Source of the DNA: a virus
IMG/VR virus record: IMGVR_UViG_3300024974_000016
Span: 1 to 25,678 of that record
DNA length: 25,678 nt
Direction: 5' to 3' (one strand)
The translations under genes and the position numbers were made by a program. Under the pieces are notes generated by a model that saw only the letters and a list, made by a program, of their open reading frames with translations, was not told the DNA's origin and did not search any database. Below are positions 9,581 to 18,401 of the stretch, piece by piece. Numbering within the stretch: the stretch's first letter is position 1; the number at the start of each line of letters is the position of its first letter.

Positions 9581-10252
9581 ATGTTTACACACGCTTCTGT
9601 TCCTCCATTAATTGAATACCCTAGAGTCAGCATCAATGATAAACGTCATTATGATACTCCAAAGGGTAAATATCCTTCTATAACAACTATTTTAAGCTCT
9701 ACTGCTGATAAAACTTGGTTAGAGGAATGGAGGAACAGAGTCGGTGAAGCAGAAGCAAATAGAATAACCAGAAATTCATCTAACCGAGGCACAACCCTTC
9801 ATCTATTATGTGAATATTACTTAAATAATTTTACCTTGCCTAAAGTTAGATGGGATGCATTGGAACTATTCTATTCAATAAAACCACTATTGAATAGAAT
9901 AGATAATATACATCATTTAGAGGGGTGTCTTTTCAGTGAAAGATTAAAATTGGCCGGTACGGTAGATTGCGTTGCGGAGTTCGATGGAGTTTTGTCTATA
10001 ATAGACTTCAAGACTTCACGTAAACAAAAAACAGAGGAGCAAATTTATTCATATTTGTTGCAAGAGACTTTTTATTCTATAGCGTATTATGAATTATCAT
10101 CTATTTCAATAAAACAACTTGTTACTATAATGGCAGTAGAAGATTCCCCTCCATTATTATTTGTGAAAAAGATTACACCAGAATATATTAGGGAATTGAT
10201 ATTACTGCGAAATAGATTTTTTCTCGAAAATCCATCCAGCATTAATTCCTGA
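9581..10252 (+). CDS. PD-(D/E)XK exonuclease (RecB/Cas4-like), T4-like phage type
   Basis: A 223-residue nuclease. The sequence RHYDTPKGKYPSITTILS (about 22-39) and RGTTLHLLCEYYL (69-81) are the N-terminal signature of phage RecB-like exonucleases. The PD-(D/E)XK core follows: LAGTVDCVAEFDG (125-137; D129), then IDFKTSRK (141-148; D142 and K144), with QIYSYLLQE (164 region) as the QxxxY helix. It probably processes DNA ends during recombination or host DNA breakdown. The start codon has no ribosome binding site; the promoter at 9546-9574 places the transcript start on the ATG. The last 17 codons overlap, antisense, the 3' end of the homing endonuclease gene, so the C-terminal tail may have been altered by that insertion. 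Confidence 0.85.
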   Translation: MFTHASVPPLIEYPRVSINDKRHYDTPKGKYPSITTILSSTADKTWLEEWRNRVGEAEANRITRNSSNRGTTLHLLCEYYLNNFTLPKVRWDALELFYSIKPLLNRIDNIHHLEGCLFSERLKLAGTVDCVAEFDGVLSIIDFKTSRKQKTEEQIYSYLLQETFYSIAYYELSSISIKQLVTIMAVEDSPPLLFVKKITPEYIRELILLRNRFFLENPSSINS

Positions 10253-11068
10253 GCTTGTTGCTATTCCCTTTTTAGAATATGAAACCGCTGATTTATAGTT
10301 CAGTCCATTATCTGAACAAAACTGTTTTAAGTTTGTTATTGATAATAAATTGCCATCTGGGTCTGTAATATGCCAATCCGCACTTTTGGTTTTTGTGTTG
10401 TTAATGGCGGTTAATGGTTGAGGTTTCCATAATTTACCTTTTGATATATTATCCTTTTGTGATTGGGTTCTAATTTTTCCTGTTATAGCATTAACCCGTT
10501 TTTTAATATGTTCTATTGATTGTGGTTTATCCTTTTTTGCTTTTCCTATACTTATTTTATGTGCTGTGGATTTAGGTTTCTTTTTTAGGGACGCTGAAAT
10601 ATTATTGCGTTGTTCTAATGTTCTCTTTTGATCTTTTAGCGAATTTGAAATTTTCTCATTGTGTTCGTTGGAATTATTTTTACCAAATCTTGCATTATTT
10701 TTCCCATTTTGGTCCCTACCAAAATACCCATTTACTGTTGCGTATGACATATTAACGAATAATGGATTTTTTACCACATTAAAAATTTTATGTAGATGTA
10801 ATTCTTTATACATAGCTTCAGATTTTGTGTAATGGTATCTAATTATGTCTATTTTAAAGGCATCTATATTATATTTTAGTTCATGTTTCCATACTTTTTT
10901 ATATTTTTTAGAAGAAACTGATCCCATATAACCTTTTGAAATTTTGTCTATAGTTGTTGAACCTATATAATTTGTTTGAATTATATTTGAATTTCCATTT
11001 TTCGGTTCTAATGCAGTGCCGTTATAGTGAATAATATAAACTACATATTTTTTATCTAATTTGACCAT
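10202..11068 (-). CDS. GIY-YIG homing endonuclease with NUMOD-like DNA-binding repeats
   Basis: A 288-residue free-standing mobile endonuclease. The GIY-YIG nuclease domain occupies residues about 8-110: VVYI at 9-12 stands for GIY, YIGS at 34-37 for YIG, and E84/E89 in SEAMYKELHLH lie where the catalytic glutamate is expected. NUMOD3-like repeats follow (GKNNARFGKNNS at about 122-133, then several K/S/I-rich helices to about 215). A C-terminal module contains DPDGNLLSITNLKQFCSDNGL and ends GINAGWIFEKK, the typical end of phage homing endonucleases. AAAGGG lies 9 bases upstream. Its orientation opposes its neighbours. Its 3' end overlaps the exonuclease gene by 51 bases, marking it as an intruder between two early genes. 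Confidence 0.9.
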   Translation of the reverse strand: MVKLDKKYVVYIIHYNGTALEPKNGNSNIIQTNYIGSTTIDKISKGYMGSVSSKKYKKVWKHELKYNIDAFKIDIIRYHYTKSEAMYKELHLHKIFNVVKNPLFVNMSYATVNGYFGRDQNGKNNARFGKNNSNEHNEKISNSLKDQKRTLEQRNNISASLKKKPKSTAHKISIGKAKKDKPQSIEHIKKRVNAITGKIRTQSQKDNISKGKLWKPQPLTAINNTKTKSADWHITDPDGNLLSITNLKQFCSDNGLNYKSAVSYSKKGIATSSGINAGWIFEKKSISQ

Positions 11069-14632: not shown

Positions 14633-16663
14633 TTACCACATCCACATATTATCCATTGTAGTTTGTAGTTGTATAGGATCATCAAAGTTTCTTACATTAG
14701 GTATTTGTAATGGTTGATAGTGTGGGCTTTTATTTCCAGTATCACTTTTAGCTGCCTGTGGAGCCGCTGGAGCCGCGATGATGATTGGTGCTTGGGTAGT
14801 ATTAGGGTTAGGTCTCTCAACGCCTGGAGCCGGTATAGGTGGCATATCTTTAACCCCTTGCATAGATTTATCAATAGGAGTTAAATCTGGATCATCACGC
14901 ATAACAGAGAATACTGAACCTTTAGATACAATTTTGTTTAGGTTGTTTAAATGCCCTCTTCTTCGTTCATCATGTGATCTCCAATCAAAATGTGCTCCAG
15001 ATTTCAGTGTATCCTGTCCATATGCCCATTTGATATATCCTTGACCTAGTAACTTAGCTGCAACTTCTGGGTCTATATTTTCATTCTCCATGAAGCTACC
15101 AACGTTATATTTTCCGCTCAATAATTCTTGTTTTGAAAATTCTGCCATTGTGTTTAGAGAATCTTGACCTTGAACCATGCCTCCATTTTTATCTATTAAC
15201 CCTTTCTCCGATAATTCAGCATACAAAGCTTTTTTCCTATCACCTTGCCAACTAAAGAACCCCATGTTTGATTTACCATTGGCGGCGTCTTTATGGTTCC
15301 CGAAGATAGTTTTTGCATTGAAACTGTTTTCTCTACCCACTTCTGCCGTCAAGGCTTTCGCTTGATTTTCACTGAACCCTGCTTTTAAGAATGAATTGTA
15401 GACTTTAACCATCATGTCATCTTTTTGATTAAGCTTTCCCTTTGGAGTGAATACTGACATTGGAGAAGTGAACCAATCTTTAACTTTACTCCATGTACTT
15501 TTTTCTTCTCCTTGTTGTTGGGTAGGAGCCGCTTCTGATTCTCCGCCTAAAAGACCTAAGAATCCAGCCGCAGCAGGTAGTGCTGCTATCCCATTTGCTA
15601 GATTAAACTTCCCAGATTTTTCCTCGTCTGTGTACTCTGAAATCAATTGTGATGGAGCATATGAATCTGAGCTACCCCCTTCATAAATTCTAGATAAACG
15701 ATTCGCCCTATCAAGGTCTCCTGATATATCATCTGATGTAAAGCGCTCTACCATTCTTCCAGTATCTCTAGAAATTGATCTAGTTGTCTCATCAATATTT
15801 TTTACAGATTCATATATTTTTTCTAATATATCTCTGGCACAACAAGCCCCTTCTTCTCCGTCTCTTTTTTCATGTGCAATTGCGGGGTTGAAGTATCCAT
15901 CCCCAACATCATTATTTGATTCGATAGATGATCTTACTGGTGACAAATTGCCAACTGGAGCTTGTGATTGTTCCGGTTTATCTGCATTAGCCACCACTGG
16001 AGTTTTATCTCCTCCACCAAAAAGTGAAGACAATAAGGCCAATTTACCAAAGTTTTTTGCTAAATTACCAGAGAATGCTTTACCTGTATCACCAATCCGT
16101 TTACCTAGCCCATTTTTAGCTGCTCCAGCCGCTACTCCTTCTGCCTCCGCTGCTGCTAATTCTTCCTCTGCTAGCAGTTCTGTCGTAGCAGTACGATCTA
16201 CTTCTTGTCTAGCTAATTGTTCTTGTGCTTCACGGTTTTGTTTGGCTCTTTCTTTTCTGGCTTTTCTATTACCAAATACATTCTTTTGTTTCGCCTTTGG
16301 AGCAGGAGGCTTTACTTTTGGCTGTTTACCCGTGAATGGATTAGCTTCTTCCTTGATTTCCCCCTTGGTATTTTTCTTGAACCATTTTTCACCAATTTTA
16401 AATAGACTTCTAACTCCCTTTTGGAATTTGTATCCTACTTTAAACGGTGCTGCTCCTGCCGCAATAGGCGACATAGCTGCCGCTGTTAAGGCTACGTCTA
16501 CTGGGTCTTCTGGGTCGAATATGAAATCTTTGGATAATTGTTTTACATTTTCCGCAGAGAAGAATGAATCATCCTCCTGCTGATTATGTAATTTCTCCAT
16601 CTCTTTAATATCTTGCTCGGTGAATTGACTTGATGGGTTTTCTATTGTTAGTTTATTGCTCAT
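14633..16663 (-). CDS. tape-measure/baseplate-hub-like protein with tail-lysozyme domain
   Basis: A 676-residue virion protein. Residues 55-75 and 205-218 are hydrophobic (LTAAAMSPIAAGAAP, KLALLSSLFGGG), and 356-375 again (NGIAALPAAAGFLGLLGG). Between lie charged, Ala/Glu/Lys-rich helices (130-185), as in tape-measure proteins. Residues about 415-575 resemble the phage tail lysozyme domain: VYNSFLKAGFSENQAKALTAEVGRENSFNAK (E445 probable catalytic residue), then SNMGFFSWQGDRKKAL. The C-terminus is Pro/Ala-rich. It lies directly downstream of gp26-like and the 59-codon ORF, as tape-measure genes follow G/GT chaperones. Thus it may combine the T4 gp29 role with the cell-wall-cutting activity missing from gp5 here. 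AAAGG is about 10 bases upstream of the ATG. Confidence 0.7.
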   Translation of the reverse strand: MSNKLTIENPSSQFTEQDIKEMEKLHNQQEDDSFFSAENVKQLSKDFIFDPEDPVDVALTAAAMSPIAAGAAPFKVGYKFQKGVRSLFKIGEKWFKKNTKGEIKEEANPFTGKQPKVKPPAPKAKQKNVFGNRKARKERAKQNREAQEQLARQEVDRTATTELLAEEELAAAEAEGVAAGAAKNGLGKRIGDTGKAFSGNLAKNFGKLALLSSLFGGGDKTPVVANADKPEQSQAPVGNLSPVRSSIESNNDVGDGYFNPAIAHEKRDGEEGACCARDILEKIYESVKNIDETTRSISRDTGRMVERFTSDDISGDLDRANRLSRIYEGGSSDSYAPSQLISEYTDEEKSGKFNLANGIAALPAAAGFLGLLGGESEAAPTQQQGEEKSTWSKVKDWFTSPMSVFTPKGKLNQKDDMMVKVYNSFLKAGFSENQAKALTAEVGRENSFNAKTIFGNHKDAANGKSNMGFFSWQGDRKKALYAELSEKGLIDKNGGMVQGQDSLNTMAEFSKQELLSGKYNVGSFMENENIDPEVAAKLLGQGYIKWAYGQDTLKSGAHFDWRSHDERRRGHLNNLNKIVSKGSVFSVMRDDPDLTPIDKSMQGVKDMPPIPAPGVERPNPNTTQAPIIIAAPAAPQAAKSDTGNKSPHYQPLQIPNVRNFDDPIQLQTTMDNMWMW

Positions 16664-16668
16664 TTATT

Positions 16669-16848
16669 TTAACCTTTGTTTTGGTTCTGCTTTTCTTTTT
16701 CTTCGCGTAAATGTTGAATCAACAACCCAATATAAATCTCACGTTCCCAGGGGATCATACCATCAAGCTCTGATAAACTATATCCATGATGAGTTTTTAA
16801 CGCAAAATTCATCTTGTAATAGCTTGCCAGAGTTACATTACCGAGCAT
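16669..16848 (-). CDS. 59-codon ORF, probable -1 frameshift extension of gp26-like protein (lambda T-like)
   Basis: The frame reads MLGNVTLASYYKMNFALKTH, then HGYSLSELDGMIPWEREIYI and GLLIQHLREEKEKQ. The YSLSELDGMIPWEREIYIGLL segment resembles the second part of tail assembly chaperone pairs, which often contain a 'L..M.WEE' core. Its ATG overlaps the stop of gp26-like (TAATG), so re-initiation is possible. The nearest Shine-Dalgarno sequence is 22 bases upstream, too far for normal initiation, but is ideally placed to stimulate frameshifting at the T-heptamer (16860-16854). By -1 shift the product is a 298-residue fusion: 237 residues of gp26-like, then Tyr-Leu and these 59. It ends 6 bases before the tape-measure-like gene. 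Confidence 0.72.
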   Translation of the reverse strand: MLGNVTLASYYKMNFALKTHHGYSLSELDGMIPWEREIYIGLLIQHLREEKEKQNQNKG

Positions 16849-17564
16849 TAGGTAAAAAAATCGAATATGTCCTCCACGACAATTTCATGGTTCATTCCAC
16901 ATTTTGTACAATTAATATCAACTTTCTTGATGATTTGTGGTTGATTTTTAAAAAATTGCTCAATCTTATAGAATTGTGTTGGGGTTAATTGTTCAAGATA
17001 TTCTACAACATTCTTGATTGGCATATCCTTGGTATAATAAACATTATCCTTATCATAGATGTACTCTACGTTTTTTGCAATATCCAAGAATAATTTATCT
17101 ATCTCTGGTAATTCTTCTGTCGTAGGAGATTCTAATTTCTCATATGATAACTTTATCCCCTCTTCATCGGAAAATGTGATGGTTGGCTCTACTCCCTTTG
17201 TCACCTCTAAATCAGTTAACAAATTTAAATCATGGTATAAGATATTGCCACATGCCTTACCATTTACCGGATTCTCACATTTATATTTCAGTTCTATTAT
17301 CTCTGATTCTGATCTAGCTCTGAGGTTGTAGAATAGATACTCTGAATCGACTATAGGTAATGTATCTAAATCAACACTGGAGGAAATGACACAGTTGTTG
17401 ATAATCTGTTTCATGGTATCGATCAATTCGACATTATCTTCTGATTCAACTGCCATAGTCAATAGCTTACGTTCCTTGACAACGTAAGGTCTGAATTTAA
17501 TTACTGCTCCAGAAATCGGTAAGATAATGTTATGAACTGGGTAATCATGTTTTGGTAAATGCAT
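16848..17564 (-). CDS. gp26: baseplate protein, T4 gp26 family, with two cysteine pairs
   Basis: A 238-residue member of the T4 baseplate protein family (gp26). The N-terminal pattern HDYPVHNIILPISGAVIKFRPYVVKERKLL (about 6-35) is the family start (short beta strands, then R-P-[FY]-x-V-[KR]-[ED]). LEQLTPTQFYKIEQFFKNQPQI and a final KVDINCTKCGMNHEIVVEDIFDFF close it. Cysteines form two groups (KCENPVNGKACGN around 112-124 and CTKC near 219-222), probably one zinc ribbon. The gene ends in a frameshift site leading to the 59-codon ORF. In T4, gp26 acts in central hub assembly. Here its position and frameshift suggest that this family plays the part of tail-tube chaperone G. The start lacks a close ribosome binding site. 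Confidence 0.83.
   Translation of the reverse strand: MHLPKHDYPVHNIILPISGAVIKFRPYVVKERKLLTMAVESEDNVELIDTMKQIINNCVISSSVDLDTLPIVDSEYLFYNLRARSESEIIELKYKCENPVNGKACGNILYHDLNLLTDLEVTKGVEPTITFSDEEGIKLSYEKLESPTTEELPEIDKLFLDIAKNVEYIYDKDNVYYTKDMPIKNVVEYLEQLTPTQFYKIEQFFKNQPQIIKKVDINCTKCGMNHEIVVEDIFDFFT
16854..16875 (-). other. programmed -1 ribosomal frameshift site (GGAGG - 10 nt - T_TTT_TTT)
   Basis: On the minus strand, GGAGG (16875-16871) is followed by exactly 10 bases and then seven T (16860-16854). In the gp26-like frame these read GAT TTT TTT ACC TAA, so the heptamer has the X_XXY_YYZ register. An upstream Shine-Dalgarno at this distance is the known stimulator in E. coli dnaX. No strong downstream stem was seen. 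Confidence 0.72.
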
Positions 17565-17570
17565 AAAATG

Positions 17571-18401
17571 TTATAGTCCTATTTTTCCTGTTATAGATGA
17601 TACCGTAAACCCAGATAAACCTATGTTTGGTAATATCGAGGCTATTGCTTGTGGGTTATTGCTCTCAATTGCGCCCTTGATAGTATTTATTGCCGCAACC
17701 CCTTTGATGCCTGCTGTAATAAATGGGTCTAGCCCACCTCTACTATAGTCACCATTATTCTCTACCTGACTGAACATATATTCATACTCAGTGTACGCGA
17801 ATGTTACAGACAATGACATAGCTGAATTTTGATCAGTCCATGATAATGAATTCTGATTAATTGCTATTGGAAATGCATCAATCAACTTAACTCGTATAAG
17901 AGGTTCTCCTGTACTGGCATATTGGGCGATATAAATATCCCTCACATATTGGTCTTTATATTTCAAATTGTAGGTGGTTGGTCCAGCGGGAGACCCAGAG
18001 GGGCTTAATTTTTGTTCATATCTCCCAGTTATATCAGTCATCCACCCTAAGAAATAATTTCTAGTTAATTCTATACCTGATCCGTGTGTGTAAAATCCTA
18101 GGTTAATGTCATTATAGCTTGCCATTGTTGGAAACTTTTCAACAACACCATAAATTTTCTGCTGGACAAAACCAAGAGATTCTCCAGGTAGTTCTGCTGA
18201 GTGACAAACGAACCTTGTGTCTAAGTAATCCTTTTTTTGAGAGGAATTTGATATTATCTTACTGCCAATATACACATCAAAATAAGATGTTCTACTCACA
18301 TCAAAGGCTAATAAGTGGGCTAATGCATTTTCATATTTTGTATCTGATGTTTCTGGTCCAGAACCACGAACCGCATCTGATAATATATCTAATACAGACA
18401 T
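17571..18401 (-). CDS. gp54: tail tube initiator / baseplate protein (T4 gp54-like)
   Basis: A 276-residue protein of the tail-tube fold. The segment CHSAELPGESLGFVQQKIYG (67-86) matches the 'LPG...K.YG' element of tube proteins. DINLGFYTHGSGIELTRNYFLGWM (98-121) is the strand-and-helix pair typical of gp19/gp54. EPLIRVKLIDAFPIAINQNSLSWTDQNSAMSLSVTFAYTEYEY (165-207) is the strongly conserved C-terminal part (KL-x-[DG]-x-[YF]P). The length, longer than gp19 (163 residues), and the location among baseplate genes favour gp54, which caps the baseplate hub and starts tube polymerisation. A phage-specific alternative is a second tube-like protein. AAGGAAG is 6-7 bases before the ATG, inside the end of the previous gene. 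Confidence 0.72.
   Translation of the reverse strand: MSVLDILSDAVRGSGPETSDTKYENALAHLLAFDVSRTSYFDVYIGSKIISNSSQKKDYLDTRFVCHSAELPGESLGFVQQKIYGVVEKFPTMASYNDINLGFYTHGSGIELTRNYFLGWMTDITGRYEQKLSPSGSPAGPTTYNLKYKDQYVRDIYIAQYASTGEPLIRVKLIDAFPIAINQNSLSWTDQNSAMSLSVTFAYTEYEYMFSQVENNGDYSRGGLDPFITAGIKGVAAINTIKGAIESNNPQAIASILPNIGLSGFTVSSITGKIGL

Follow-up and report, generated by a model that had tools for sequence, protein, structure and literature searches.

The stretch of DNA analyzed here (the window), 25,678 bases long, is a virus record from IMG/VR that carries T4-like tail genes, and the features of interest lie on its minus strand. A tail-tube-like protein (17571..18401; phrog_45 tail tube, E 1.3e-26) is encoded directly upstream of ORF1 (16851..17564, or 17564-16848 with its stop codon), whose 238-aa product is a gp26-type protein that matches PF12322 T4_baseplate (E 3.6e-44) and phrog_150 baseplate hub (E 5.9e-44). 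At the end of ORF1, in the -1 frame, a second ORF of 59 codons (ORF2, 16848-16669) has its own ATG overlapping the ORF1 stop, and its product matches phrog_634, baseplate hub assembly catalyst (E 1.2e-24). ORF1 and ORF2 sit between the tail-tube-like gene and a gene for a tape-measure-like protein of 676 aa with a tail lysozyme domain (14633..16663; PF18013 Phage_lysozyme2, E 3.2e-07; phrog_9570 tail length tape measure, E 1.6e-05), the presumed client of the products described below. The initial annotation had placed 6 bases between ORF2 and this gene; the gap is 5 nt, with the -1 stop ending at 16669 and the tape-measure-like ORF beginning at 16663. Elsewhere in the window, a 288-aa ORF on the minus strand (10202-11068) resembles, by eye, a GIY-YIG homing endonuclease.

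On the minus strand the 3' end of ORF1 reads GTG GAG GAC ATA TTC GAT TTT TTT ACC TAA TGC. The initial annotation had described the elements of a programmed -1 frameshift in this sequence, and each of them was found where it was said to be. A putative slippery heptamer, T_TTT_TTT, is in the 0-frame register (16854..16860), 3 nt ahead of the TAA that ends the short form (16848..16850), and a GGAGG that would serve as a Shine-Dalgarno-like stimulator (16871..16875) is separated from the heptamer by a spacer of exactly 10 nt. ORF2 is read in the -1 frame, and its ATG shares the last A of the stop, as TAATG. In the predicted slip base 16854 would be read twice, and the reading across the junction would be IFDFF-YLMLGNVT..., adding 61 residues past the slip (16672..16854; stop at 16671-16669). 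These would form a gp51-type C-terminal domain in a long form (TAC-NC) of 298 aa in total, alongside the 238-aa short form (TAC-N).

Relatives of the locus were collected from IMG/VR using gp26 patterns and, independently, using the 59-aa ORF. The resulting set comprises 185 loci including the window, 135 of them distinct after near copies were removed, with gp26 identities of about 26-50%. Because these loci are the best-scoring of larger sets, statements about the heptamer refer to that part of the superfamily with at least ~26% identity. Within this range T_TTT_TT[C/T/A] is present in register in 185/185 loci (135/135 distinct), 0-9 nt ahead of the stop, and the T-run and register highlighted in the initial annotation are thereby conserved in every distinct relative. 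The distance to the stop is 3 nt in 99 and 0 nt in 34 of the 135, and the heptamer ends in C in 69 sequences, in T in 58, and in A in 8. Furthermore, the -1 frame continues into the same gp51-type domain in all 130 relatives with a long enough contig. The first Phe codon of the site is TTT in all distinct relatives (background 0.72), and the codon before it always ends in T (AGT, AAT, GAT, TCT, GCT, or ACT). Calculated from each gene's own codon usage, the chance probabilities of these two observations are 10^-20.0 and 10^-29.4, respectively; common descent of the sequences inflates the significance of both. Away from this site, the same genes contain T_TTT_TT[ACT] at 18 of 31,925 in-register positions, and just 9 of 149 other Phe-Phe pairs are encoded by an in-register TTTTTT. 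Cultured phages also carry the site; for example, T_TTT_TTC is found at the same place in Syn1, P-SSM4, KVP40, phiWae14, and D490, and T_TTT_TTG in Rhizobium phage AF3. Rhizobium phage RHph_I1_18 (L189:3640-3735) has T_TTT_TTA 24 nt before the gp26 stop, and its -1 frame also offers a TAATG start.

Similar comparisons were made for the Shine-Dalgarno-like element. A strict 4-mer of this type lies 9-17 nt upstream of the heptamer in 106/135 distinct relatives, rising to 121/135 with looser motifs. Such 4-mers start 12, 13, 14, and 15 nt upstream in 33, 73, 68, and 46 sequences, respectively, where about one is expected at each position. Codon choice points in the same direction: Glu occupies the position four codons before the codon holding the first T of the heptamer in 105/135, and it is encoded by GAG in 70 of these 105 compared with 22.4 expected (the maximum in 200,000 simulations was 46). 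Since the element is enriched at a fixed spacing in the relatives, the comparison identifies the GGAGG of the window as part of a conserved signal. The expectation in the initial annotation that GGAGG would be conserved at 10 nt held for position, with Shine-Dalgarno-like 5-mers always ending 8-10 nt upstream, but the element is present in most relatives rather than all. RNA structure downstream of the heptamer was in no significant excess (mean z -1.05, compared with -0.62 for a control stretch; P 0.10), and it is unsupported as a stimulator. To our knowledge, downstream RNA structure is not required at lambda-type frameshift sites.

Both parts of the predicted fusion are homologous to the gp26/gp51 family of T4, as indicated by PF12322, phrog_150, phrog_634, and a profile of the fusions themselves. 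T4 gp51 consists of a gp26-type domain (PF12322, residues 1-201) followed by a C-terminal domain like the 59-aa ORF. A profile built from 129 predicted fusions gave a gap-free alignment to T4 gp51 through the junction (profile 23-285, E 6.9e-14); the same profile aligned with T4 gp26 just to position 241, which is the junction. All 55 members of the C-terminal-domain alignment match phrog_634. It was also observed that PHROG 150 merges short gp26-type proteins with fusions of the T4 gp51 type, and that 634 matches the separately annotated C-terminal piece.

The AlphaFold2 model of the short form has a mean pLDDT of 94. Its high-confidence matches in a viral structure library were other baseplate hub or hub assembly chaperone proteins, and the tail-assembly chaperone of HK97 (2ob9) was among the better-probability Foldseek matches, as a weak match (0.69, E 1.4). 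Foldseek matched nothing to the model of the C-terminal domain (pLDDT 73). Sequence searches of the PDB returned chance-level matches for the short-form profile and coiled-coil-like chance matches for the C-terminal profile, and no Pfam family covered the C-terminal domain, for which two weak matches were judged to be chance.

The signal, its conservation, the coding that continues across the junction, and the fusion's homology to T4 gp51 can all be read from the sequences themselves, and they make it very probable that one gene gives rise to short and long forms of a tail-assembly chaperone through a -1 frameshift. Most ribosomes would stop at the TAA and release the 238-aa gp26-type protein. 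A minority would be held by pairing of 16S rRNA with the GGAGG while Phe tRNAs in the P and A sites occupy TTT TTT; slipping back by one base, these ribosomes would enter the -1 frame and complete the 298-aa form with its gp51-type C-terminal domain. By analogy with gpG and gpGT of lambda, coating of the tape-measure protein may fall to the short form and recruitment of tail-tube subunits to the long form. We infer the chaperone action, the efficiency of the frameshift, and the ratio of short to long form.

Different explanations of the arrangement were considered. Ribosomes terminating at the TAA could begin translation again at the overlapping ATG, giving a free 59-aa protein of the gp51 type, in which case the T-run would be incidental. 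The TAATG overlap is found in the window, in KVP40, in RHph_I1_18, and in some Ackermannviridae, and database annotators have entered gp51 as a separate small gene. The initial annotation judged such reinitiation to be the weaker explanation, and the relatives bear this out, as an overlap of this type occurs in just 16/135 distinct sequences. Within the first 12 codons of the -1 frame, 94/130 relatives have no ATG and 49/130 have no ATG, GTG, or TTG. The residues right after the slip are conserved (Leu/Phe at index 3, His/Tyr at index 5, and Leu at index 8), and the first ATG, GTG, or TTG is at index 6 or later in 88/129. Conserved residues therefore precede the first possible start, and reinitiation would be unable to produce them. 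The register of the T-run and the choice of codons around it would also be left unexplained, making reinitiation an improbable account of the locus. Some free 59-aa protein may be made in the window besides the fusion, given that a TAATG start is present.

The seven T's in the window might also suggest transcriptional slippage, in which RNA polymerase would insert or omit a base within the run, so that a fraction of the mRNAs encode the fusion in a single frame. However, in 69/135 distinct relatives the site is TTTTTTC, and a run of six T's is short for polymerase slippage. This process needs neither the codon register seen in 135/135 nor a Shine-Dalgarno-like element, and we regard it as highly improbable. 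Homopolymer runs are prone to error, which could point to a recent frameshift mutation or a sequencing error that split a single gene; this is refuted by an identical split, at one and the same position, in 185 loci as well as in cultured phages, and its probability is negligible.

The Ackermannviridae are an exception to the pattern, in that the gp51-type domain is kept in the -1 frame but the T_TTT_TT heptamer is absent. The junction is ATT TTC AT[T/C] TAA in Vi01, SeG, Madison, phiD3, Ag3, and 18 IMG/VR contigs, and other heptamer-less forms occur in VAP7, D495, and 1.244.A. The conserved residues are not preceded by an ATG in the Vi01 and Madison types. A group of these loci (L192, L200, L203, L207-L220, and L224 in our numbering) reads ATT TTC ATT TAA TTTTTGAAATTGATTTA..., where neither an X_XXY_YYZ heptamer nor an in-frame ATG was seen near the junction. 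With the heptamer missing and the first in-frame ATG not reached before about codon 12, the arrangement matches neither TAATG reinitiation nor a canonical tandem slip, and we suggest, tentatively and with considerable doubt, that Vi01, SeG, Madison, and 15 further contigs use some other route.

Earlier work bears on both the proteins and the signal. In a review from 2010, gp26 and gp51 are classed as hub assembly chaperones (PMC3004832). Vladimirov, Gautam & Davidson (2022, Virology 566:9-15) identified the tail-assembly chaperones (TAC-N/TAC-NC) of T4-like phages, as related in PMC10885494 and PMC12846349. The latter (2025) credits that study with poly-T signals for a -1 shift in the TAC-N genes of these phages, and according to PMC10885494 it also found that some T4-like phages do not frameshift but have a short gene and, separately, a fused one. 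A chaperone role for gp26-family proteins is thus not new (Vladimirov et al. 2022; PMC3004832). The proposal in the initial annotation that these proteins are frameshifted tail-assembly chaperones is supported, with the reservations that the role was already known and that T4 itself does without the frameshift, having gp26 and a separate, fused gp51. This kind of frameshift is likewise known for T4-like phages, and the present locus is a well-supported further case; what may be new is the conserved Shine-Dalgarno-like element and the extent of the comparison. A comparison published in 2010 recorded that cyanophage and marine vibriophage gp51 is without the first ~200 residues of T4 gp51 (PMC3037559); on the frameshift reading gp26 would supply those residues, which would explain the oddity. 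We found no description in the open-access literature of a gp26/gp51 frameshift in cyanophages. The long form is missing from the public records examined, which show two separate genes instead. In four database records (L187, L188, L190, and L195) gp51 is given different starts in the -1 frame, some of them inside the conserved domain, and none records a fusion.

The interpretation in the initial annotation, which drew on G/GT of lambda, is largely right. As in lambda, a single gene that precedes the tape-measure gene would yield a short and a long chaperone, with a -1 slip near the end of the first ORF. They differ in that no sequence relation was found between them, the heptamer is T_TTT_TTT here and G_GGA_AAG in lambda, and a Shine-Dalgarno-like stimulator is conserved here. 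That element recalls the -1 frameshift in dnaX of E. coli, where a Shine-Dalgarno-like sequence is located about 10 nt upstream of the heptamer, at a fixed distance as in the present case; the heptamer and the gene are different, and no strong downstream stem-loop was detected here. In phage Adele (Vandenendeviridae), TAC-N contains a conserved GTTTTT close to its end at which a -1 shift takes place (PMC12846349); Adele belongs to a different phage family, and the likeness noted here concerns the arrangement of the shift. In T4, gp26 corresponds to the short form and gp51 to the long form, joined at the same place, but they are encoded by two separate genes on opposite strands with no frameshift. 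Short and fused forms are also separate genes in Acinetobacter phage Stupor, Aeromonas phage 31, RB43, and Proteus phage phiP4-3. In a gp26/gp51 tree, which is unrooted and has long branches, gp51 proteins of the T4 type form one clade (99/96) and the T4-type genes are split from the single-gene lineages (99/97). One superfamily of phages would have two solutions for the same pair of short and long proteins, either a frameshift or separate short and fused genes.
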